Source: Chloroflexota bacterium
Lineage (GTDB): Bacteria; Chloroflexota; Chloroflexia; Chloroflexales; Roseiflexaceae
DNA: 37,039 nt
Reading direction: 5' to 3'
Assembly (NCBI GenBank): GCA_013388755.1
Contig: JACAEQ010000110.1
Coordinates: forward strand, 1-37,039
The notes beneath the pieces were generated by a model. The model searched no databases and was not told the DNA's origin. It was given only the letters and a program-made list of their open reading frames with translations. The position numbers and the translations under genes were made by a program. This document shows, piece by piece, positions 1 to 30,378 of this stretch (position 1 is the first letter of the stretch; each line of letters opens with the position of its first letter).

Positions 1-3000
1 GCGGCGAGTTGCGCAGCCGCCGTACTGTGGTGGTGCTGGCACTGCCGCCTGGACAGTCGGCGCTTACACTGACGCCGGGTGAGCCGGCACACGTCGAGGT
101 GCTCGTCACGAACCGCACGCCCGCGCCCCTGACGATTGCGCTGGCAATTGATGGTCTGCCTGCCGGCTGGGTCGAACCTGCGCCGACATTGCGCGTGGCG
201 CAGTTCGCCTCGGCGACGGCGGCGCTGGTTGTTACTGCACCGGCGCTACCAGAAAGCGCTGCCGGCCCCTACCCGGTACGATTGCGTGCCACGGCGCAGG
301 AGGTTCCGGCGATTGCGTCCGAGTTGCCGCTGGAATGGCGCGTTGCACCGTTTCTTGCCGGCGAATTGCACGTGTCGCCACATCGCTGCCGTGACCGCGA
401 ACTTGCGGTTGTGTCGGTCCATCTGCGGAATGGCGGCAATACGCGAGCCGTCTACCATCTGCGCGCGATCGCTGAACACCAGGCGCTCAGTTTTGCGCTG
501 GCGGAGGAGCATATTGATATTGATCCCGGCAGTGTGGTGGAGACGCCGCTGACGATTGCGGCGTCGCGCAGGATCGTTGGCACTGATCGCGATCTTGCAT
601 TCACGGTCGAGGCCGAAGAGAGCAGTGAGACGCAGGGTGCGATCACGCGTACGATCAGCGATGACGCGCATTTTGTTCACGCGGCGCTTTTGCCAGCCTG
701 GTCGCCATTGCTGGCGTTACTGGTGCTTTTCCTGCTGTATGGCTTCAACGTCCCCGCACCGCTCTGGTCTACCGTTCCAGGGCGTGGATTTATCATTGGT
801 GCGCAGGTAAGTGGCGCGGCGCTCGAAGCGACCCGTATCGTCGAGCGTGCCACACAACAGGCGGCTCAGGGGCAGACGGCGATCGCTGATGCGGCGGCGG
901 TGCTGGCTGCTACCCAGTCTGCGGTGGCGGCGTTGCCAACCGAGCAGCAGGCAAGCGCGCAGACGGCGCTGGCAGGCGCGTTCCAGGCAACCAGCACGGT
1001 GATCGCCGCCGGCCAGACAGCGGCGGCGCAGGTGTTGAATGCAACCGAGGTTGCCAATAATGACCAGCTGGCCCGAACCAGGACGGCTGAGGAACAGCAG
1101 AGCCAGACGGCCCTTACCCAGGCGCCCCTTCCAACGGCCACGTCGCGCCCGGCGGCTACGGCCACGTCGCGCCCGGCGACTACGGCCACGTCGCGCCCAT
1201 CTGCGACGCCGGCTGCGACCCCGCAGGCGACGGCTCAGGCGACGGTGGTTGCCAGCGCCAGTGTCGAGGTTGACCCATCGGCGCTGGCGTTCGGTAGTAT
1301 CAAGAAGGGTACAACCAGCGCTACACGCATCATTCTGTTGCGGAATACGAGCAATGTGGCGCTGACCATTACGGCGATCGCCATCGGCGGCGTCAATGGT
1401 GCCGATTTCGCACGTGTTACTGGCGGCGCCGATGAGTGCGGTGCATCGCTGGCCGCCAATGCAACCTGTGCCATCAGCCTTACCTTTAGCCCGGCGGTTG
1501 CGGGTACGCGTAGCGGGCAACTGCGTATTGAGAATACGTCGGCTGGTGGAACCATTCTCGTCAACCTGACCGGCGCCGGGACGGAAATCCCTGAAGTCGC
1601 CGCCATTAATCGTGTCGGCAGTAGCCCGACCAACGCAGGTAGCGTTCAATTTCAGGTGAACTTTAGCGAAGCGGTCAGGGGTGTGAGCGAAGCCAACTTC
1701 AGCCTGGTGACGCTCGGTGGCGCCGTCGGGTCGAGCATTACGTCGGTGGCGCCGGCCAGCAGCGCCTCGACCAACCAGTGGACCGTCACGGTGAATGTGG
1801 CTGGCGGCAACAAGACCGTTCGTCTTGACTTCATCAATAGTAACGGTGTCACGAATGCTGATGGCAACGCAGTGGAGAAGCTTCCGTTCAATACCGGCGA
1901 CCAGTACGTGATCGATACAACCGCGCCTCAGGTGACGCTGAGCGGTACGCCGCCCGCGCTCAGCAATAACCCGGCGGCGCCATTCACCTTCAGCGGCAGT
2001 GATGATGTCACCGCCAGCCTGACGTTCGAGTGCCGTGTGCTACCGGCCGCATTCGCCGCGTGTACCAGCCCATTCACGCCCGCCGGCCTGGCCGATGGCA
2101 GTCGCACGTTCGAGGTGCGGTCACGCGATGCCGCCGGCAATGCCAGCTCTCCTGCGTCCTATACCTGGACGCTGGATACGACGCCGCCGGATACGGCGAT
2201 CGCCACCGGGCCGGCGAATGGCAGTACCAGCGGGCCGGATGTCAGTTTCACGTTTACATCCGAGGCGGGAGCGACGTTCGAGTGCCGCGTGTTGCCGGCT
2301 ACGTTTGCTACCTGTACCAGCCCGTTGAACCTGACAGGCTTGCCGGAAGGGTCGCGTACCTTCGAAGTGCGGGCACGAGACGCCGCGGGCAATGCTGATG
2401 CCAGCCCGGCGACGCGCACCTGGACGGTGGACGCGACACCGCCCGACACGACTATCACCGGCGGGCCGGCGAATGGCAGCACCAGCGGGCCGGATGTCAG
2501 CTTCACGTTTACGTCCGAGGCGGGAGCGACGTTCGAATGTCGTGTGCTCCCTGCGGCATTTGCGCCGTGTACCAGCCCGCAGAACCTGACCCTGCCCGGC
2601 GGTTCACGCACGTTCGAGGTTCGAGCGCGTGATGCGGTCGGGAACATTGACGCAACACCGGCGACGCGCACCTGGACGGTGGACGCGACACCACCCGACA
2701 CGACTATCACCGGCGGGCCGACGGGCACGGTCGCCACTACGAGCGCCAGCTTTACATTTACCTCAACCGAAACAGGAACATTTCAGTGCAGTCTGGACGG
2801 GGCGCCATTCACGGCCTGCACCAGCCCGCAGAACTATGCTGGCCTGGCTGATGGTGCGCACACATTCGCAGTGCGGGCGATCGACGCGGTAAACAACATT
2901 GACGCAACACCGGCGACACGCACCTGGACGGTAGACACGACACCGCCCGATACGACTATCACCGGCGGGCCGGCGAATGGCAGCACCAGCGGGCCGGATG

Positions 3001-3956
3001 TCAGCTTCACGTTTACGTCCGAGGCGGGAGCGACATTTGAATGCAGCCTGGATGCCGGCGCTTTCGCCGCCTGCACCAGCCCGGAGAACCTGACCGGCCT
3101 GGCGGACGGATCACGCACGTTCCGCGTCCGGGCGCGCGATACAGCTGGGAACGTTGACGCAACGCCGGCGACGCGCACCTGGACGGTGGACGCGACACCG
3201 CCCGACACGACTATCACCGGCGGGCCGGCGAATGGCAGCACCAGTGGGCCGGATGTCAGTTTCAGCTTTAGTTCAACCGAAGCCGGAGCGACGTTCGAAT
3301 GTCGTGTGCTCCCTGCGGCATTTGCGCCGTGTACCAGCCCGCAGAACCTGACCCTGCCCGGCGGTTCACGCACGTTCGAGGTTCGGGCGCGCGATGCGGT
3401 CGGGAACATTGACGCAACACCGGCGTCACGCACCTGGACGGTGGACGCGACGCCACCCGATACCAGCATCACTGGCGGGCCGTCCGGTACGGTGAACACA
3501 GACAGCGCCAGTTTCACGTTCTCCTCTACCGAGGCGGGAACGTTCCAGTGCAGTCTGGACGGGGCACCATTCACGGCCTGCACCAGCCCGCAGAACTATG
3601 CCGGCCTGGCTGATGGCGCGCATACATTCGCAGTGCGGGCGATCGACACGGTAAACAACATCGACTCGACGCCGGCAACGCGCACCTGGACGGTGGACAC
3701 GACGCCACCTGATACCAGCATCACTGGCGGGCCGGCTGAAGGAAGCTCGAGCGGGCCGGACGTCAGTTTCACGTTCTCCTCTACCGAGACGGGGACGTTC
3801 CAGTGCAGCCTGGATGGCGCGCCATTCACGGCCTGCACCAGCCCGCAGAACTATGCCGGCCTGGCGGCCGGTGCGCATACCTTTGCGGTGCGGGCGATCG
3901 ACACGGTGAACAACGCCGACCCGACGCCGGCAACGCGGACCTGGACGGTGTCGTGA
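1..3956 (+). CDS. Large single-pass membrane protein with ASH-like domain and eight Ig-like repeats (5' partial)
   Basis: The reading frame is open to the window edge, so the start probably lies upstream; a TTG at 9 is the only in-window candidate near the edge and has no convincing ribosome site. Numbering from that TTG: residues 10-225 form two beta-rich Ig-like/NEW3-like domains that resemble residues 655-865 of the downstream protein. Residues 229-246 are a membrane helix. Residues 265-370 are Ala/Gln-rich and probably helical, and 374-402 hold three ATSRPA-type repeats. Residues about 418-528 match the ASH/'choice-of-anchor D' type (LAFGS, CAISLTFSP, GQLRIENTS). Residues 530-635 form a further beta domain, followed by eight ~85-aa repeats (CSLDG/CRVLP, CTSP, GSRTFEVRARD, TRTWTVD). 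The large C-terminal part is probably outside the cell as an adhesive or sensing stalk. The missing N-terminus could hold a signalling domain. Function is otherwise unknown. Confidence 0.85.
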   Translation, partial: GELRSRRTVVVLALPPGQSALTLTPGEPAHVEVLVTNRTPAPLTIALAIDGLPAGWVEPAPTLRVAQFASATAALVVTAPALPESAAGPYPVRLRATAQEVPAIASELPLEWRVAPFLAGELHVSPHRCRDRELAVVSVHLRNGGNTRAVYHLRAIAEHQALSFALAEEHIDIDPGSVVETPLTIAASRRIVGTDRDLAFTVEAEESSETQGAITRTISDDAHFVHAALLPAWSPLLALLVLFLLYGFNVPAPLWSTVPGRGFIIGAQVSGAALEATRIVERATQQAAQGQTAIADAAAVLAATQSAVAALPTEQQASAQTALAGAFQATSTVIAAGQTAAAQVLNATEVANNDQLARTRTAEEQQSQTALTQAPLPTATSRPAATATSRPATTATSRPSATPAATPQATAQATVVASASVEVDPSALAFGSIKKGTTSATRIILLRNTSNVALTITAIAIGGVNGADFARVTGGADECGASLAANATCAISLTFSPAVAGTRSGQLRIENTSAGGTILVNLTGAGTEIPEVAAINRVGSSPTNAGSVQFQVNFSEAVRGVSEANFSLVTLGGAVGSSITSVAPASSASTNQWTVTVNVAGGNKTVRLDFINSNGVTNADGNAVEKLPFNTGDQYVIDTTAPQVTLSGTPPALSNNPAAPFTFSGSDDVTASLTFECRVLPAAFAACTSPFTPAGLADGSRTFEVRSRDAAGNASSPASYTWTLDTTPPDTAIATGPANGSTSGPDVSFTFTSEAGATFECRVLPATFATCTSPLNLTGLPEGSRTFEVRARDAAGNADASPATRTWTVDATPPDTTITGGPANGSTSGPDVSFTFTSEAGATFECRVLPAAFAPCTSPQNLTLPGGSRTFEVRARDAVGNIDATPATRTWTVDATPPDTTITGGPTGTVATTSASFTFTSTETGTFQCSLDGAPFTACTSPQNYAGLADGAHTFAVRAIDAVNNIDATPATRTWTVDTTPPDTTITGGPANGSTSGPDVSFTFTSEAGATFECSLDAGAFAACTSPENLTGLADGSRTFRVRARDTAGNVDATPATRTWTVDATPPDTTITGGPANGSTSGPDVSFSFSSTEAGATFECRVLPAAFAPCTSPQNLTLPGGSRTFEVRARDAVGNIDATPASRTWTVDATPPDTSITGGPSGTVNTDSASFTFSSTEAGTFQCSLDGAPFTACTSPQNYAGLADGAHTFAVRAIDTVNNIDSTPATRTWTVDTTPPDTSITGGPAEGSSSGPDVSFTFSSTETGTFQCSLDGAPFTACTSPQNYAGLAAGAHTFAVRAIDTVNNADPTPATRTWTVS
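1914..3953 (+). repeat. Eight in-frame ~255-bp repeats encoding Ig-like units
   Basis: About 2,040 bp divide into eight units averaging 255 bp (85 residues). Each begins TPPDT-IT-GGP and ends TWTVD, with two conserved cysteines per unit (ECR/QCS and CTSP) that could form a disulfide. Units 3 and 6 are nearly identical at DNA level and so are units 4 and 7, offset by about 762 bp, pointing to a three-unit duplication or gene conversion. Confidence 0.9.
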
Positions 3957-3968
3957 GCAGTGGTATGA

Positions 3969-6900
3969 ATGAAAGCTGGAGCTATGTCAGATCTGGAGCC
4001 GAATCAGCAGACGATTGGCGCATATCGGCTTGACGTTCAGCTTGGTGTGGATGGCGCAGGCGAGGTATATCGTGCGTATCACGTTCCCTCGGGGCAACCG
4101 GTAGCGATCCGGTTGTTGCCTGGCGATCGCATGGCGTTGCCGGGCTTCCGCGAGCGCTTTGAGCGCGAGATGCGGCGCGCCGCGGCATTGTATCATCCGC
4201 ACCTGATCGAACTGTACGAATCTGGCGTCAGCGAAGGTCGTGCCTTTGTGGTGAGTGAACTGGCGCCTGGCGGTTCACTGCGCGAGTTGATGCAACGAGG
4301 CGCGGTATCCTTGCGCCTGGGTGCCGAACTGGTGCGCCAGGCTGCTGTGGCTCTGGAAGCGGTCCATGCCCGCGCAATGGTCCACGGGGCGATCAAGCCC
4401 GAGAATCTGTTGTTGTTTCCTGAGAGTGGCGGCGGCTACCTGCTCAAACTGGGGGATCTTGGCCTGGCGCGCCTGTCTGCGCCCGATGCCATTGATACGA
4501 TGCCGTACCGCGCGCCGGAACAACGCGCCGGGAGCGATCCGGATGTGCATGCCGATCTCTATGCGCTTGGCGCAGTGCTGTACGAAATTGCAGTTGGCAC
4601 ACCGCCACCAGCGACGGGCATTCCGCCGCTTGGCCATGTCAATCCGGATGTCCCTCGTGCGCTTGAGGCAATTGTCGCGCGCTGCCTGACTGCACCCTCT
4701 GCCGGTCGCTTTGCCAGCGCTGCCGAACTGGCCGCCGCTCTGGAGGATCTGGTGGCGCAGATGGCGCCACGCCTGTCCGCTGCCGCCGCTGCCGATGTGA
4801 CGGTGATTGAACGATTACCGACGCATGACGATGCGACGATGGCTGCCGCTATCGTGCCGCCTGCACCGGTTGATGTGACGATAATCGAAGCAACGTCCCC
4901 TGCGCCGCCAGCGGCCGCCCCCGCCGATGCCACGCTGGTCGAGCCGGCGGTGGCCCCCGCCGATGCCACGCTGGTCGAGCCGGCGGTGGTGGCCCCCGCC
5001 GATGCCACGCTGGTCGAGCCGGCGGTGGTGGCCCCCGCCGATGCCACGCTGGTTGAGCCGGCGGTGGCGGCAACGCCAGCCAGCGCGGTCGCCGATGCCA
5101 CCGCTGCCTTGCTTGCCGATGAGACGCCGGAGGTACAGGAGGCAGGTGCGCCGCAGGTGGCGCCAGAGGTCATCAATCCGGACGAGGCCGTAACGATTTT
5201 GCCTGAACCACTGCCGGCAATCAGCACCCCGATCCCGGAAGTCGCGGTGACCCGGTCGCTCATGATAGCGACGCCACCGCCAGGCTTCCCGGCTCTTCCA
5301 CCGCCGTTAAGTATGCCTCAGGTTCAGGTGCTCGACAGCCAGGGCATGCCGCTCCAGCTTGTCAACCTGACTGGCGATGGCCTGGCGGTCGGGCGCGCGG
5401 CGACCAGCGACCTGGTGCTGGCTGACGAAAGCGTGTCGGAGGAGCATGCGTTTATTGACTGGGATGGCCGGCAGGTGACAGTATCCGACCTGGGATCGAC
5501 GAATGGCGTCATCCTTGCCGGTGTTCGCCTGGCGCCGCAGGAACGCCGGCTCTGGGAAGGCGGCGTCCCGCTGCGTATTGGCGTGTACTGGTTGCGGCTG
5601 GTACCGGCGATGGCCCAGGCAACGAGCATGATCGCGCCTGCGCAATATGGCATTCCCGAGCCCACGGCAGCGGCCGTTCCACGGGTTGTTGCACCCCCGC
5701 CGCCGGCGCCCCGCCCTGCTGGATCAGTAACGCCAGGTTTTGGGGCACCTGCCATGGTCGGGCCAACAGCTGCGATCCCACAGGCGGGTGGCATCACCCA
5801 GACGCCGTCGGCTGGCATGCGCCGCGATGCCCCGGCTGTGCCGCAGGCGGCAGTTGTTGCGCCGCCTGAGCCCGCCGATGCAATCCCGGATGCCGGGGTC
5901 ACCCAGCCACCGCTTGGATCGAACCGGTACGGCGTCGAACTGGAACAGGATGTGACGACGCTCACCCCCGGCATGCCGACCGTCTTGCGCCTGACGTTGC
6001 ACAACTACAGCGAGAATGTCGATCATCTGCGCGTTGAAGTGCGTGGCGTGCCGGAAACCTGGATCCAGGGCCCGCCGCCTGAACCTCAATTACTACCCAA
6101 TGGCCGGCAGCCGGTGGCGCTCAATATCAATGTGCCGCGAACGCCGGAACATCGCGCCGGCCCCTACCCGGTGACGATCTATGCGCGCTCCCGCAGCCGT
6201 CCGAATGAGGCCGGCATTGCGCAGGCGACGTGGACCGTTCAGGCATTTACCGAGCACCGGCTGGAATTGAAGCCGCGCCGCGCCACCGGCTGGCGCAAAG
6301 CGTCCTACAATCTGACGCTGACCAACGCTGGCAATGTACCGTCGCGCTACACGCTTTCCGGCGAAGATGACGAACAGGTGCTCGATTTCGGCCTTGGGCC
6401 GGAGGTCATGCCGCTCGATCCAGGTGTGGCGGTGAAACGCCGGCTGACGGTACGTGGCCCGATACGCTGGTTCGGCACGCCTCAACCGCGCAGTTTTTCG
6501 ATCCATGCGCGCACCGAAAAGCGATCCGAGGCACAGACCTCATCGGCGCAATTCGTCCAGCGCGCGCTTGTTCCGCCCTGGATCATCCCGCTGCTACTCC
6601 TGTCCGTCGCGGCAATTCTGTACTTCGTGACGCGCCCACCAGTTGTGCGCAATCCACGGTTCGACCCGTCACCGCTGGTTGCCGGCCAGCCCGCCAGGCT
6701 GAGCTACGAAATTGATAATGCGCAACGGGTCGAGTTACAGCCGATTGGTGTACCGGCGCCGGCAGCATCCGGCCGCCGCAGCTACGAGTTTCTCGATGCG
6801 GCAGCGATACCGCCCGATCTGAGCATCAGGGCGGTGAGCCGGTTCGGTATCATTGCAGAGGCGCCAGTCGCGGCCGTGGTTGTGACGCCGACGCCGACAC

Positions 6901-7406
6901 CCTTGCCGCCGACGCCGACGCCTGCCCCGCCGACACCTGCGCCGGCAGAGCCGTTGCCTGCGCCGACGCCCGCGCCGGAGCCGCCGGTGATCGTCGCGCC
7001 GCCGCTGCCGCCCCAGCCTCCGCCACCCGTCGAGACACCAGCCCCGACAGTAACGTTGTCGGAGCTGGTGCGCTTCACGTGCGAGTCTGGCGCGCGGATC
7101 GTGCTGACCGGATCAGGGCCGCCGCGCGAGTCGTTTCTGCTCTACTTTGGACGGCGGGCAGTGAGTGGTGGGAGCGTGGCGCCCGATGGCGTCTACCGGA
7201 TCGACATGGTGATCGGGCGCGAACGACCGGGCGAATACCCGGTCAGCGTCCGGCTGCGCCTCAGTGATCGTCCGCTTGCGATTCGCACGTACCGATACGG
7301 CAACGATCCGCTGGTGCGCCTGAGCGATGCGGCGCCAGAAACGGTGCCGACTGAGTTGATGTGCGTCGTCCGGCGAGAGACGCCAACGCCGACGATCGCG
7401 CCCTGA
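3969..7406 (+). CDS. Membrane pseudokinase-FHA-Ig signalling protein
   Basis: Residues 18-264 have the fold signature of a Ser/Thr kinase (YRAPEQ, DLYALGAVLYE), but key residues are changed. The ATP-anchoring Lys of VAIK is Arg48, and HRD is HGA, so the catalytic Asp is Ala141; the DFG-type Asp163 remains (DLG). It is therefore probably a pseudokinase that binds rather than phosphorylates. Residues 317-366 carry four APADATLVEPAV repeats. Residues 450-545 are an FHA domain with its phosphothreonine-site residues (GR476, S490, H493, STNG513). A Pro-rich linker, two Ig/NEW3-like domains (655-865), a membrane helix (869-887), a Pro/Thr-rich stretch and a small C-terminal beta domain follow. It starts 12 nt after the preceding stop, so the two genes probably form one operon. 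ATG at 3984 is an alternative start; neither start has an ideal ribosome site. Confidence 0.88.
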   Translation: MKAGAMSDLEPNQQTIGAYRLDVQLGVDGAGEVYRAYHVPSGQPVAIRLLPGDRMALPGFRERFEREMRRAAALYHPHLIELYESGVSEGRAFVVSELAPGGSLRELMQRGAVSLRLGAELVRQAAVALEAVHARAMVHGAIKPENLLLFPESGGGYLLKLGDLGLARLSAPDAIDTMPYRAPEQRAGSDPDVHADLYALGAVLYEIAVGTPPPATGIPPLGHVNPDVPRALEAIVARCLTAPSAGRFASAAELAAALEDLVAQMAPRLSAAAAADVTVIERLPTHDDATMAAAIVPPAPVDVTIIEATSPAPPAAAPADATLVEPAVAPADATLVEPAVVAPADATLVEPAVVAPADATLVEPAVAATPASAVADATAALLADETPEVQEAGAPQVAPEVINPDEAVTILPEPLPAISTPIPEVAVTRSLMIATPPPGFPALPPPLSMPQVQVLDSQGMPLQLVNLTGDGLAVGRAATSDLVLADESVSEEHAFIDWDGRQVTVSDLGSTNGVILAGVRLAPQERRLWEGGVPLRIGVYWLRLVPAMAQATSMIAPAQYGIPEPTAAAVPRVVAPPPPAPRPAGSVTPGFGAPAMVGPTAAIPQAGGITQTPSAGMRRDAPAVPQAAVVAPPEPADAIPDAGVTQPPLGSNRYGVELEQDVTTLTPGMPTVLRLTLHNYSENVDHLRVEVRGVPETWIQGPPPEPQLLPNGRQPVALNINVPRTPEHRAGPYPVTIYARSRSRPNEAGIAQATWTVQAFTEHRLELKPRRATGWRKASYNLTLTNAGNVPSRYTLSGEDDEQVLDFGLGPEVMPLDPGVAVKRRLTVRGPIRWFGTPQPRSFSIHARTEKRSEAQTSSAQFVQRALVPPWIIPLLLLSVAAILYFVTRPPVVRNPRFDPSPLVAGQPARLSYEIDNAQRVELQPIGVPAPAASGRRSYEFLDAAAIPPDLSIRAVSRFGIIAEAPVAAVVVTPTPTPLPPTPTPAPPTPAPAEPLPAPTPAPEPPVIVAPPLPPQPPPPVETPAPTVTLSELVRFTCESGARIVLTGSGPPRESFLLYFGRRAVSGGSVAPDGVYRIDMVIGRERPGEYPVSVRLRLSDRPLAIRTYRYGNDPLVRLSDAAPETVPTELMCVVRRETPTPTIAP
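4917..5066 (+). repeat. Four tandem ~36-39-bp units encoding ADATLVEPAV
   Basis: The units are almost identical in DNA and protein and lie between the pseudokinase and FHA domains. Looser versions of the D-x-T-hydrophobic-hydrophobic-E pattern occur just upstream (ADVTVIE, VDVTIIE), so the array looks like an amplified short motif with one threonine per unit. Confidence 0.85.
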
Positions 7407-25072: not shown

Positions 25073-27061
25073 ATGCGTCTCGAAGACATGGTGGGGCGGA
25101 CGATCGGTCGCTACCACGTTCTTGCGTTGCTCGGTCGCGGCGGGATGGCCGCAGTCTACCGCGCGCGCGATACGGCGCTGCGGCGCGATGTTGCGCTGAA
25201 GGTGCTCTACCCGCAGTTTCTCGGCGATGCCGCGCTGGTCGAGCGCTTCCAGCGCGAGGCGGTGCTTGCGGCGCGCCTCGATCATCCTGGCATCGTGCCA
25301 ATCTATGATGTCGGCGAAGCTGATGGGCTGGCGTTCATCGCCATGCGCCTGCTCGAAGGCCCGTCGCTTGCCGATGTACTGCGCTTCCGCGATCGCCTGA
25401 CCGTTGACGAATGCGTCGCGTTACTGGAACAACTGGCTGGTGCGCTTGACTATGCGCATTCACGCGGTGTTGTGCATCGCGATATCAAGCCGGCGAACAT
25501 CATTCTTGAGGCGCGCGGCGAGGGGCATGAAGCGCGTGGTGATACGGTTGACCTTGCGGCGATGCGCCTGACACCTGGCATGCATGCGATCCTCACGGAT
25601 TTCGGGATTGCCAAGGCGCTGGATACGCCAGGCATGACGGGAACCGGTGTTCTGATCGGCACGCCGGAGTATATGGCGCCGGAGCAGATTCGCGGTGACG
25701 CGCAGATTGACGGGCGTGCCGACGTGTATGCGCTTGGCGTGCTGATCTTCCGCTGTCTCACCGGGCGCCGACCATTCGAAGGTTCGACGCAGGAAGTATT
25801 GCTTGGTCATCTTGAGGGCGCCGTCGTTGAGCCATCGGCAATCGATCCGTCCATTCCCCAGCCGATCAGCGCCGCGATCCGCCTGGCGCTCGCCCGCCGC
25901 CCTGATGATCGCTATCGTAGCGCCGGTGAGTTCGCCCGTGCGCTGCGCTCGGCAGCACGCATGGAAGCCGCGCCCCGGCCGCAACCGGCAGTCGTGGTGC
26001 AGCGCACGCCAGAGCGTGCCGTGCGCGTGCCGCCCGACGCCCCGACCGGCACTGGCGACGCGCGATCGTTGGCGCTGCCACGTGAAGCGCAGCCGCCAGC
26101 CGCACCGGTCGCGCCACGCCGGTTTCATCCTGCGCTGCTGGCGCTCCTCGCGCTCGGCGCATTGTTGCTTGGCGGCGGCGGTGCGGTACTTGCCGGGCGC
26201 ATGCTCATTGCCCAGGGCACGACGCCGACACCTGCACCGCCGCTTCCAACTCGTACCTCCACAGCGACCGCGTCACCCGAGCCCACCCTGACTGCCACTC
26301 CCACCACGACGCCCGAACCCACCCTGACCGCCACGCCCACTGCGACGCCAACCGAATTGCCGACGGCGACGCCGGTTCCGCCAAGCGCGACGCCCAGCCC
26401 GCGCCCGACAGCGACGCCAGTTCCGCCCACACCGACCGAACTGCCGGCGCCTCCACCGACCGAACCGCCATCGGCTACACCAGCACCATCGATCACGCCG
26501 ACACCGTCGCTTACGGCGACGGCGACTGCTACCGCCACTGCAACCGCTACCGCCACGCCGACGCCGTGCGCGATTACGCCGGTTCGTGGTTTTGGTAAAG
26601 TGTGGAACGAGAACACGACCGTGGCGCAGCGCCTGGGTTGCCCGGCCGACATCGAGCGTGGCGGCGAAAACTCGCTGATCGAGCAGCGCTTCGAGGGTGG
26701 CAGTATGCTCTCGTATCTCCCGGTTGGCGACGTGCATGTGTTGATCGGGTTCAGCCGCGGCACGTGGCAACGCTATCAGCCGGTGCTTCTCCCGCCCGAC
26801 AGCGCGCCGACGCCGACCCCGCCGGCCAATCTGCAGACGCCGTCGGGCGCGTTTGGCCTGGTCTGGGCAGCCAACCCTGGTGTACGGCAGAATCTCGGTT
26901 TTGCGTTGCTGCCGCAGAGTGCCGTGATTGAAGGGGCATATCAGGCATTCGAGGGCGGGGTGATGATCTATAGCCGCGATGGGTTGGGGCGCGGGAAGAC
27001 GATCTATGTGCTGTTCAATGATGAATCGTTTGAACGCTACGATGATACGTTTGTTCCGTGA
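25073..27061 (+). CDS. PknB-like receptor Ser/Thr protein kinase
   Basis: An intact Hanks-type kinase domain spans residues 12-295: glycine loop GRGGMAAVY, Lys43 (VALK), HRDIKPAN with catalytic Asp137, DFG with Asp176, TGTGVLIGTPEYMAPEQ activation loop. About 25 extra residues (147-171) sit between the catalytic loop and DFG. A membrane helix spans 353-376, then a long Thr/Pro-rich stalk (about 383-508), and an extracellular region of two related units (FGKVWNENTTVAQRLGCP and FGLVWAANPGVRQNLGF) resembling LGFP-type repeats common in Chloroflexota. It probably senses a cell-surface or wall signal. No ribosome site stands before ATG 25073; ATG 25088 is an alternative. As an active kinase in the same window it is a candidate to phosphorylate FHA ligands. 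Confidence 0.9.
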   Translation: MRLEDMVGRTIGRYHVLALLGRGGMAAVYRARDTALRRDVALKVLYPQFLGDAALVERFQREAVLAARLDHPGIVPIYDVGEADGLAFIAMRLLEGPSLADVLRFRDRLTVDECVALLEQLAGALDYAHSRGVVHRDIKPANIILEARGEGHEARGDTVDLAAMRLTPGMHAILTDFGIAKALDTPGMTGTGVLIGTPEYMAPEQIRGDAQIDGRADVYALGVLIFRCLTGRRPFEGSTQEVLLGHLEGAVVEPSAIDPSIPQPISAAIRLALARRPDDRYRSAGEFARALRSAARMEAAPRPQPAVVVQRTPERAVRVPPDAPTGTGDARSLALPREAQPPAAPVAPRRFHPALLALLALGALLLGGGGAVLAGRMLIAQGTTPTPAPPLPTRTSTATASPEPTLTATPTTTPEPTLTATPTATPTELPTATPVPPSATPSPRPTATPVPPTPTELPAPPPTEPPSATPAPSITPTPSLTATATATATATATATPTPCAITPVRGFGKVWNENTTVAQRLGCPADIERGGENSLIEQRFEGGSMLSYLPVGDVHVLIGFSRGTWQRYQPVLLPPDSAPTPTPPANLQTPSGAFGLVWAANPGVRQNLGFALLPQSAVIEGAYQAFEGGVMIYSRDGLGRGKTIYVLFNDESFERYDDTFVP

Positions 27062-27648: not shown

Positions 27649-28011
27649 ATGCGCCCTCAATGGATCATTGGTATCATGGCAGCATCGCTGGCGTTTCTTC
27701 TGATGGGAAGTGTCGTCGGTGTGGCTGCCATTCAGCGACGCACCATCACCGCGCCATATGTCAACTGGTCGGTGGGTTCCATCAGCCTCCAGGGCTTCAT
27801 CACCGATACGCCGCATTGCCGCGAAGCTGGTGGGCGTACCGTTCCCAACCAGCGCTGCATGAACGGGTCACTCTACTCACCCATGGAGTACTATGCCGTG
27901 TGGCTTGTCGTGCGTGAAAGCAAGTATCGCATTCGTGAGAATCGCCTGTTGCTCATACGCCTCGACGAGAGCCCGCCGGTCGGCACCTTCAACAACTGGA
28001 CCGGGCAATGA
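27649..28011 (+). CDS. Small membrane-anchored hypothetical protein
   Basis: A 120-residue protein has one N-terminal hydrophobic helix (about 6-27, IIGIMAASLAFLLMGSVVG), probably an uncleaved signal anchor, and a ~90-residue exterior part with two cysteines (PHC and QRC) that could pair. I do not recognise a family. GGAGG five bases before ATG 27649 decides the start over 27628. The stop overlaps the next gene's ATG as ATGA, so it is translated in coupling with the antiporter and may assist it; this is inference from position only. Confidence 0.7.
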   Translation: MRPQWIIGIMAASLAFLLMGSVVGVAAIQRRTITAPYVNWSVGSISLQGFITDTPHCREAGGRTVPNQRCMNGSLYSPMEYYAVWLVVRESKYRIRENRLLLIRLDESPPVGTFNNWTGQ

Positions 28012-29114
28012 ATGCGCTGACTATCGTCCTGTTTGTGGCAGGGATCGGTTTGCTGATCGGCGGCGCCGAGGCGCTCATACGCGGCGCGTCGCGGCTGGCG
28101 GTCGCGCTTGGCATTTCACCATTGATCGTCGGATTGACAGTGGTCGCCTTTGGCACCAGCTCGCCGGAGCTTGCTGTCACCATCATGGCCGTGCGATCAG
28201 GCGCCGCAGGCGCCGACGTGGCGCTTGGCAATGTCGTCGGCAGCAATATCGCCAATGTGCTCCTCATCCTCGGGTTGTCGGCTGTTGTCGTGCCGTTATC
28301 GGTTGCCGCGCAGATCGTGCGGAAGGATCTGCCGCTGCTGATCATCGTATCATTCATTGTCTACCTGTTCGCGCTGGATGGCGTGATCAACCGGCTGGAA
28401 GGAGTGATTCTGACGGCAGGCGTGATCGGGTACACGATATTCGCGATTATTGCGAGCCGGCGTGAGAGCGCAAGTATTCAGGCAGAGTATGGCGAAGTCT
28501 ACGGGCCGCCACATCGTGGCATTCGCGAAACGTTCATCAATCTGGTGCTGATCGGTGGTGGCCTGGGCCTGCTCACCCTCGGGTCGCGCTGGCTGGTGGA
28601 TGGCGCGGTGGAGTTTGCGCGATTGCTGGGGGTCAGCGAACTGATCATCGGTCTCACGATCGTTGCCGTCGGCACCTCACTGCCCGAGATTGCGGCATCC
28701 GTACTGGCCGGCGTGCGCGGCGAGCGCGACATCGCCGTGGGGAATATCATCGGAAGTTGCCTGTTCAACCTCCTGGCCGTACTCGGCACCGGTTCGGTGA
28801 TCGCGCCAGGCGGCATCGCCGTGCCGGAAAACGCGCTGGCATTCGATCTGCCGGTCATGATCGCCACATCCATTGTATGCCTGCCAATCTTCATCAACGG
28901 TGGCGAGGTGAAACGCTGGGAAGGCGCCCTGTTCCTCGCCTATTATGTTGCGTATACGGCCTATCTGCTGCTGGCGGCCATGCGGCATGCATTGCTGCAA
29001 CTCTTCGGTATTGCCATGATCGGCTTCGTTATTCCATTGACGATTATTACGTTGAGTGTCGTACTGCTGCGCGAACTCCGCAACCGTCGCCTGGTTCCTC
29101 CGGAACGTCCGTGA
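28008..29114 (+). CDS. CaCA-family (YrbG-type) cation/proton antiporter, paralog 1
   Basis: A 368-residue polytopic membrane protein carries the two alpha repeats of the calcium/cation antiporter superfamily: GTSSPELAV with GNVVGSNIANVLLILG, and GTSLPEIAAS with GNIIGSCLFNLLAVLG. These glutamates and asparagines line the ion path, exchanging Ca2+ (or another cation) for Na+ or H+. About ten helices are expected in two inverted halves, joined by a cytoplasmic loop near 145-170. In the second repeat the usual GSN is GSC, a change not present in the next paralog. Start ATG 28008 overlaps the previous stop. Confidence 0.9.
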   Translation: MNALTIVLFVAGIGLLIGGAEALIRGASRLAVALGISPLIVGLTVVAFGTSSPELAVTIMAVRSGAAGADVALGNVVGSNIANVLLILGLSAVVVPLSVAAQIVRKDLPLLIIVSFIVYLFALDGVINRLEGVILTAGVIGYTIFAIIASRRESASIQAEYGEVYGPPHRGIRETFINLVLIGGGLGLLTLGSRWLVDGAVEFARLLGVSELIIGLTIVAVGTSLPEIAASVLAGVRGERDIAVGNIIGSCLFNLLAVLGTGSVIAPGGIAVPENALAFDLPVMIATSIVCLPIFINGGEVKRWEGALFLAYYVAYTAYLLLAAMRHALLQLFGIAMIGFVIPLTIITLSVVLLRELRNRRLVPPERP

Positions 29115-29274: not shown

Positions 29275-30378
29275 ATGGATGCAATGACCATTGTGCTCTT
29301 TATTGCCGGGCTGGTGATCCTTATTGTTGGTGCGGAGGTACTGGTACGCGGCGCTTCGCGCGCCGCGCTGGCGCTGGGTATCTCCCCACTTGTCGTCGGA
29401 TTGACGGTGGTGGCATTCGGCACCAGTACCCCCGAACTGGCAGTCAGTGTTCAGTCGGCGCTCTCCGGCCCTGGTGGCGCCGACGTGGCGTTGGGGAACG
29501 TTGTCGGCAGCAACATTGCCAATGTCCTCCTCATTCTGGGCATTTCGGCGGTGATTACGCCACTTGTTGTACAACAGCAACTCATCAGGCTCGATGTGCC
29601 GCTCATGATCGGCGTGTCGCTACTGACGTGGTTGATGGCGCTTGACGGCCAGATTAACCGGATCGATGGGGTTATTCTTTTTGCCGGTATCGTGGCATAT
29701 ACCATCTTTGCCGTCCGCCAGAGCCGCAAAGAGAGCGCCGAGATCCAGGATGAGTATGCCACCGAGTTCGGCGATGGGAAGAGACGATCTACTGGCGAAT
29801 GGCTAAAAAACCTGGCATTGATGATTGGCGGGCTGGCATTGCTGGTGCTTGGCGCCCGCTGGCTGGTAGACGGCGCGATTACGTTCGCGCGCTCCTTCGG
29901 TGTCAGTGAACTGGTGATTGGATTAACCATCGTAGCCGTTGGCACCTCACTGCCTGAAATCGCGACATCGATCATCGCGGCGCTGCGTGGCGAACGCGAC
30001 ATCGCCGTCGGCAATGTCGTCGGCAGTAATATCTTCAACCTGCTGGCGGTGCTTGGCATCACCAGCATGGTCGCGCCGGCGGGCGTCAATGTCGCTCCGG
30101 CGGCGCTCAACTTCGATATTCCCGTCATGATTGCCGTGGCTGTCGCCTGCCTGCCGATTTTCTTTACCGGCCGGCTCATCGCGCGCTGGGAAGGATGGCT
30201 GTTTCTGGGGTACTATGTGGCGTATACGCTGTACCTGGTGCTGGCCGCCGTGCAACATGACGCGCTGCCTGCCTTCAGCAACACCATGAGCCTGTTTGTC
30301 GTACCGCTCACGGCACTCACGCTGGTGTTCCTCGCCTGGCGCGCATTTCAGGCGGATCGTGGCGCCGCCGCGGCGTGA
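29275..30378 (+). CDS. CaCA-family (YrbG-type) cation/proton antiporter, paralog 2
   Basis: This 367-residue protein is closely similar to the upstream antiporter throughout, so the pair arose by tandem duplication. Both alpha repeats are canonical here: GTSTPELAV with GNVVGSNIANVLLILG, and GTSLPEIATS with GNVVGSNIFNLLAVLG. The loop between halves (KESAEIQDEYATEFGDGK) is acidic. AGGA lies about nine bases before ATG 29275. A 160-bp gap without obvious promoter separates the two genes, so they may or may not be cotranscribed. Cation specificity cannot be told from sequence. Confidence 0.9.
   Translation: MDAMTIVLFIAGLVILIVGAEVLVRGASRAALALGISPLVVGLTVVAFGTSTPELAVSVQSALSGPGGADVALGNVVGSNIANVLLILGISAVITPLVVQQQLIRLDVPLMIGVSLLTWLMALDGQINRIDGVILFAGIVAYTIFAVRQSRKESAEIQDEYATEFGDGKRRSTGEWLKNLALMIGGLALLVLGARWLVDGAITFARSFGVSELVIGLTIVAVGTSLPEIATSIIAALRGERDIAVGNVVGSNIFNLLAVLGITSMVAPAGVNVAPAALNFDIPVMIAVAVACLPIFFTGRLIARWEGWLFLGYYVAYTLYLVLAAVQHDALPAFSNTMSLFVVPLTALTLVFLAWRAFQADRGAAAA

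Follow-up and report, generated by a model that had tools for sequence, protein, structure and literature searches.

Bacteria living in hot springs carry a locus for a contractile injection system (CIS), a phage-tail-like injection machine, and judging by synteny the last gene of this locus encodes a kinase-like protein with replaced catalytic residues. What could such a protein do at the end of a CIS gene array? The whole stretch of Chloroflexota DNA analyzed here, referred to as the window, is 37,039 nucleotides long and represents one complete contig, C43. The preliminary description had placed the gene at 3969-5620, but the open reading frame continues to 7406 and encodes 1145 amino acids counted from the ATG at 3969. 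Translation probably begins at the next ATG, at 3984, where the orthologs also have a methionine. From the N- to the C-terminus, the protein consists of a kinase-like domain, a low-complexity repeat linker, an FHA domain (aa 456-547), a pair of Ig-like domains (aa 651-862), a transmembrane (TM) helix and a proline-rich tail with a small conserved domain at its end. The features are as follows (G003, G015, G001 and G037 are other genomes or their proteins, as named).

3969..7406, + strand: pseudokinase-FHA-Ig-Ig-TM gene
4008..4754, + strand: kinase-like domain, aa 14-262 (Pfam Pkinase, 2.8e-26; AlphaFold2 pLDDT 89.6)
4110..4112, + strand: Arg48 replacing the beta-3 catalytic Lys (Arg in the window gene, G003 and G015)
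4383..4406, + strand: catalytic loop HGAIKPEN, Ala141 replacing the HRD Asp (HGA in the window gene, G003 and G015)
4455..4520, + strand: activation segment from DLG to APE, 22 aa, without the Thr and GTP-Y motifs of the cluster kinases
5334..5609, + strand: FHA domain with Arg476, Ser490 and Asn512 kept (Pfam FHA, 4.5e-13)
5919..6554, + strand: two Ig-like beta-sandwich domains, conserved across the cluster proteins (AlphaFold2 pLDDT 90.8)
6564..6647, + strand: transmembrane helix, about aa 866-893 (hydropathy)
7080..7289, + strand: C-terminal extracytoplasmic domain, common to the G001 and G037 pseudokinases

Both Pfam and the AlphaFold2 model assign the N-terminal domain to the bacterial Hanks-type kinase fold. 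The closest solved folds are PknI, PknA and PknB, the best PDB matches being Mycobacterium kinases. The translation bears out the earlier reading that VAIK is changed to VAIR (45-48) and HRD to HGA, within HGAIKPEN (139-146), and that DLG (163-165) and APE, as part of APEQ (182-185), are retained. With respect to the three residues of which a pseudokinase lacks at least one (the beta-3 Lys, the HRD Asp and the DFG Asp), Lys is replaced by Arg and the HRD Asp by Ala in three genomes. Intact orthologs were found in two genomes, G003 and G015. Orthologs with an intact Lys and Asp had been named as evidence that would count against inactivity; both orthologs have the Arg and the Ala, and since the same residues recur, chance or sequencing error does not account for them. 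Beyond the losses described previously, the G-loop has Asp at the position of its second glycine. The activation segment is shortened to 22 aa versus 29-30 aa in the cluster kinases, with T-x-[TS]-G and GTP-Y missing. The alpha-C Glu, the DFG Asp, the Lys of HGAxK, APE and the alpha-F Asp are kept. Catalytic inactivity of the domain, as predicted from this residue pattern, is well supported by sequence. Nucleotide binding is possible because the DFG Asp, the HGAxK Lys, the alpha-C Glu and, in the window protein only, the catalytic-loop Asn are kept; in G003 and G015, Ala or Ser takes the place of this Asn and the G-loop has degenerated. Other degenerate kinases encoded in the same genome as the window have HRDVQPAN with NLS for DFG (L018) or HPPISSAN (L019).

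The Arg, Ser and Asn of a phosphothreonine-binding site are all present in the FHA domain, as had been noted, though the usual S-R-x-H is replaced by S-E-E-H. In a fold search, whole-length matches of the Ig-like pair were weak (TM-score 0.3-0.4), which limits the assignment to an Ig-like fold. Since hydrophobic segments are absent before aa 866, the protein N-terminal to this position, Ig-like domains included, is probably cytoplasmic.

The left end of C43 appears to adjoin contig C93, as the minus strand of C93 matches G003 directly upstream of the region matched by this end, with an estimated gap of ~0.3 kb. The resulting array comprises the CIS genes, FHA-Tail_P2_I, a methyltransferase, the kinase genes K1, K2 and K3, FHA-Ig-TM-Calx, FHA-Ig-TM-Big and the pseudokinase gene. 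Gene order is identical in the window's genome and G003, and the gene calls of G015 agree. The gene preceding the pseudokinase gene is incomplete in the window.

3..3956, + strand: preceding gene of the cluster, truncated at the contig end, encoding Ig-like domains, TM and Big repeats; its orthologs begin with FHA

Using Pfam and PHROGs, the sheath, tube, baseplate, cap and AAA ATPase genes of an eCIS or cytoplasmic CIS were identified in the G003 and G015 loci, with matches to Pvc16_N, sheath, gp19 tubes, CIS_tube, gpD/gpV hub, Baseplate_J, AAA ATPase and eCIS_core. The sheath gene of the window's genome is located on C93. The baseplate protein of this locus is an FHA domain fused to Tail_P2_I (Pfam). 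Such fusions in CIS loci are found at L060:5501-6586 (-) and L058:13232-14293 (-), and similar ones in several other Chloroflexota families. In Roseiflexus-type loci, K1 is separated from FHA-Tail_P2_I by a protein methyltransferase-like gene (L056:6928-8592, +; L058:11616-13226, -).

K1-K3 are three intact kinase-FHA proteins encoded on C93, in which the C-terminal extracytoplasmic domain of the pseudokinase protein was not found. The preliminary description had suggested the kinase at 25073 as a partner. This kinase is indeed intact, but it has no FHA match, is 18 kb distant, with unrelated minus-strand genes in between, and falls outside the FHA/Ig-like kinase clade in the tree. On these grounds it was rejected, and K1-K3 are the better partner candidates. 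Elsewhere in the window, two neighboring genes (28008-29114 and 29275-30378) encode paralogous membrane proteins that are alike at their N-termini and resemble Ca2+/Na+ antiporters, and about nine 42-bp tandem repeats occupy the contig end (36653-37039).

Of 11 further Chloroflexota loci examined, all but one, G300, have a comparable arrangement: in these 10, an FHA-Tail_P2_I gene is followed by a gene for a protein that combines Ig-like domains with FHA or FHA-kinase. These proteins have a TM helix, except for a contig-cut ORF in G033, and three of them contain an intact kinase. In other CIS loci, the stretch read contains FHA arrays but lacks a kinase gene. In the kinase tree, HGA/HGS pseudokinases form three clades with support of 100 each, versus only 46/42 for their union, and all of them may or may not share a single origin. 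Orthology of the two CIS-linked clades is favored because the C-terminal domain is common to both. G001 encodes a tandem double pseudokinase (HGSL and HGSV) within a single FHA-Ig-TM protein (L064:12797-17032, -), EQTQAL Thr repeats lying between the two domains. A separate HGALRPE pseudokinase clade, from the same taxonomic order (L069, L071, L075), is adjacent to other genes instead of this CIS.

The linker between the kinase-like and FHA domains contains an array of threonine motifs.

4755..5333, + strand: linker; its 7 [DE]-x(1-2)-T-h-h motifs are potential phospho-acceptors (motif count)
4794..5057, + strand: 264 bp within which 6 of the genome's 14 D[AV]T[ILMV][ILMV]E sites fall (DNA pattern search, whole genome)

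The motif [DE]-x(1-2)-T-[VILM]-[VIL] occurs in 7, 9 and 7 copies in the three intact linkers. Shuffled linkers have a mean of 0.2-0.3 copies, 0 of 10,000 reach the observed count and the runner-up among 245 ORFs has 2, a test that is partly post hoc, since a stricter first Thr motif gave 2 copies in G003 and was widened after the sequences had been seen. Tandem repeats of 39 bp are located at 4917-5071 within the linker-coding region, and four near-identical units in the window gene represent a recent tandem duplication (95% match) and hence are not independent. Repeat units vary among the orthologs and the Thr core is constant. Neither K1-K3 nor the remaining CIS-linked membrane proteins examined have such an array, and for this reason we rejected it as a general CIS docking signal. 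In the preliminary description, the protein reads phosphorylation by another kinase; the linker suggests that it may also be phosphorylated itself.

We propose a phosphothreonine scaffold at the membrane, which would be phosphorylated by K1-K3 and recruit FHA proteins as well as, perhaps, the CIS baseplate, and we consider the chances of this proposal to be about even. It starts from features read directly in the genes, namely the conserved loss of catalytic residues, the CIS linkage, the Thr array and the FHA domain on the baseplate protein. A conserved, catalytically dead kinase closing the gene array of a Roseiflexus-type cytoplasmic CIS would act as the membrane scaffold, and its pseudokinase domain would bind other proteins, K1-K3 of the cluster being the most likely partners. 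These kinases would phosphorylate the Thr motifs in the cytoplasmic linker, and FHA domains encoded in the cluster, perhaps also that of the baseplate protein, could then dock on the phosphothreonines. Docking might bring the CIS to the membrane or prime it for firing. Imaging of the Roseiflexus CIS showed particles free in the cytoplasm of intact cells (PMC12998442), and therefore docking would have to be conditional. The residues that make nucleotide binding possible, the lack of the Thr array in the other CIS-linked membrane proteins examined and the FHA arrays of CIS loci with no kinase gene in the stretch read also count against the proposal. A broader and more tentative possibility, which we are inclined to doubt, is that in Chloroflexota cytoplasmic CIS a phosphothreonine-FHA switch, composed of the FHA-fused baseplate and FHA/kinase/pseudokinase membrane proteins, captures free particles at the membrane and triggers firing.

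Other roles for the kinase-like domain can be weighed against its evolution. Kinase-domain dN between the window gene and each ortholog is 0.27-0.33, versus 0.05-0.08 for K1-K3 in the same genome pairs, so that the pseudokinase domain evolves about 3-6 times faster than the neighboring intact kinases. It is also the fastest-evolving folded part of the protein (ortholog identity 59-64%, versus 71-73% in the FHA domain and 82% in the two Ig-like domains), as would be expected of a drifting remnant in a protein that works through its FHA, Ig-like and TM parts. However, dN/dS (omega) is 0.13-0.22, an approximate value as dS is >1 in these comparisons, there are 0 gap columns in 249, Arg48 and Ala141 are invariant and the kinase fold is predicted with confidence. 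The domain is constrained though faster-evolving, and a remnant is quite unlikely. Alternatively, the domain may bind nucleotide or allosterically activate a partner kinase, with the Thr array being incidental. All intact orthologs retain the DFG Asp, the alpha-C Glu and Arg48, and Arg48 could support binding, as proposed for ActPs2, EphB6 and KSR1; Lys-to-Arg pseudokinases that still bind ligands are listed in a 2025 pseudokinase review (PMC12599244). We regard this as unlikely given the degenerate G-loop of G003 and G015 and the Ser or Ala that replaces their loop Asn. Residual phosphotransfer or some other chemistry, as in SelO or SidJ, has bacterial precedents (PMC12599244) and would fit the kept DFG Asp, but appears highly improbable when the Lys72 and Asp166 equivalents are lost together with the activation-segment motifs. 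The dead, membrane-anchored FHA scaffold of the preliminary description is supported by the Arg48 and Ala141 of the orthologs, the loss of activation-segment motifs and the constrained, faster evolution.

The protein could also serve general envelope signaling and merely lie beside the CIS genes, and the existence of the HGALRPE clade outside such CIS loci agrees with this. Its distribution makes such a role very unlikely. Sheath genes of 91% identity are present in G003, G015 and G019; a search at E 1e-30 detected none in three genomes of the same genus, G009, G012 and G017. Intact pseudokinase genes occur in G003, G015 and the window's genome, and none was found in G009 and G017, which are without the CIS. 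A ~38 kb deletion in G012 (junction G003 offset 3048 to 40986), a single event that carries much of the weight of the CIS linkage, has removed the CIS and K1-K3. The pseudokinase gene persists there as a relic (L061:10400-13700) with several frame changes, in-frame stops and aa 543 to 747 missing (G003 numbering). G019 has the CIS, and the pseudokinase was not found in its assembly, which is 82% complete. The decay after CIS loss, the absence from CIS-lacking genomes, the gene order shared by three genomes and the FHA-fused baseplate gene within the array all argue against a general envelope protein, and the tie of the pseudokinase to the CIS is well supported. A membrane scaffold that docks the CIS is the best-supported reading, at about even odds.

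Two membrane pseudokinases are useful for comparison: MviN, a lipid II flippase-like protein that is not known to have an FHA domain of its own, and EssB/YukC, which is likewise not known to have one and belongs to a machine that is not contractile. According to the review, MviN (Rv3910, ActPs3) of Mycobacterium is likewise a membrane protein with a cytoplasmic pseudokinase, an intact kinase phosphorylates the tail beside this pseudokinase and the FHA protein FhaA binds it (PMC12599244). MviN differs in having VALT, no HRD and a degraded DFG motif, where the protein studied here has VAIR, HGA and DLG, and in its role in cell-wall synthesis rather than a CIS. EssB/YukC of type VIIb secretion is also a single-pass membrane pseudokinase scaffolding a secretion machine, yet all three of its catalytic motifs are degraded, in contrast to the DFG Asp kept here. 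The actinobacterial ActPs2 pseudokinases have the beta-3 Arg, but their HRD Asp is changed to Asn and most of them have a DFG deletion; the Chloroflexota protein has Ala and keeps the DFG Asp. Seven bacterial pseudokinase families are named in the parts of this review covered here, in which Chloroflexi are not mentioned (PMC12599244), and the signature of Arg, HGA and a kept DFG Asp would add a lineage outside these seven.

Among secretion machines, the PpkA-Fha pathway of type VI secretion also uses a kinase and an FHA protein to control a contractile machine, with Fha binding a phosphothreonine of the membrane protein TssL (PMC3953482). This pathway differs in having an active kinase, PpkA, and in working without a pseudokinase, and type VI membrane genes were not seen in the stretches read here. 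The cytoplasmic CIS of Roseiflexus (PMC12998442) is of the same kind as the one described here. A word search found no mention of FHA or kinase in the main text of that paper, and no link of FHA or Ser/Thr kinases to CIS in the open-licence PMC main texts of other CIS papers. Streptomyces has a related cytoplasmic CIS of lineage IId whose firing requires the membrane protein CisA (PMC12237407; PMC12998442), and the CisA paper mentions neither FHA nor kinase (PMC12237407). Close CisA homologues are reported to be absent from Roseiflexus, so that its firing mechanism may differ from that of Streptomyces, according to the authors (PMC12998442). For the Roseiflexus CIS, imaged free in the cytoplasm (PMC12998442), the locus provides a concrete set of candidate membrane partners with testable chemistry, and a phosphothreonine-FHA switch, if true, would do the job of CisA by another route.
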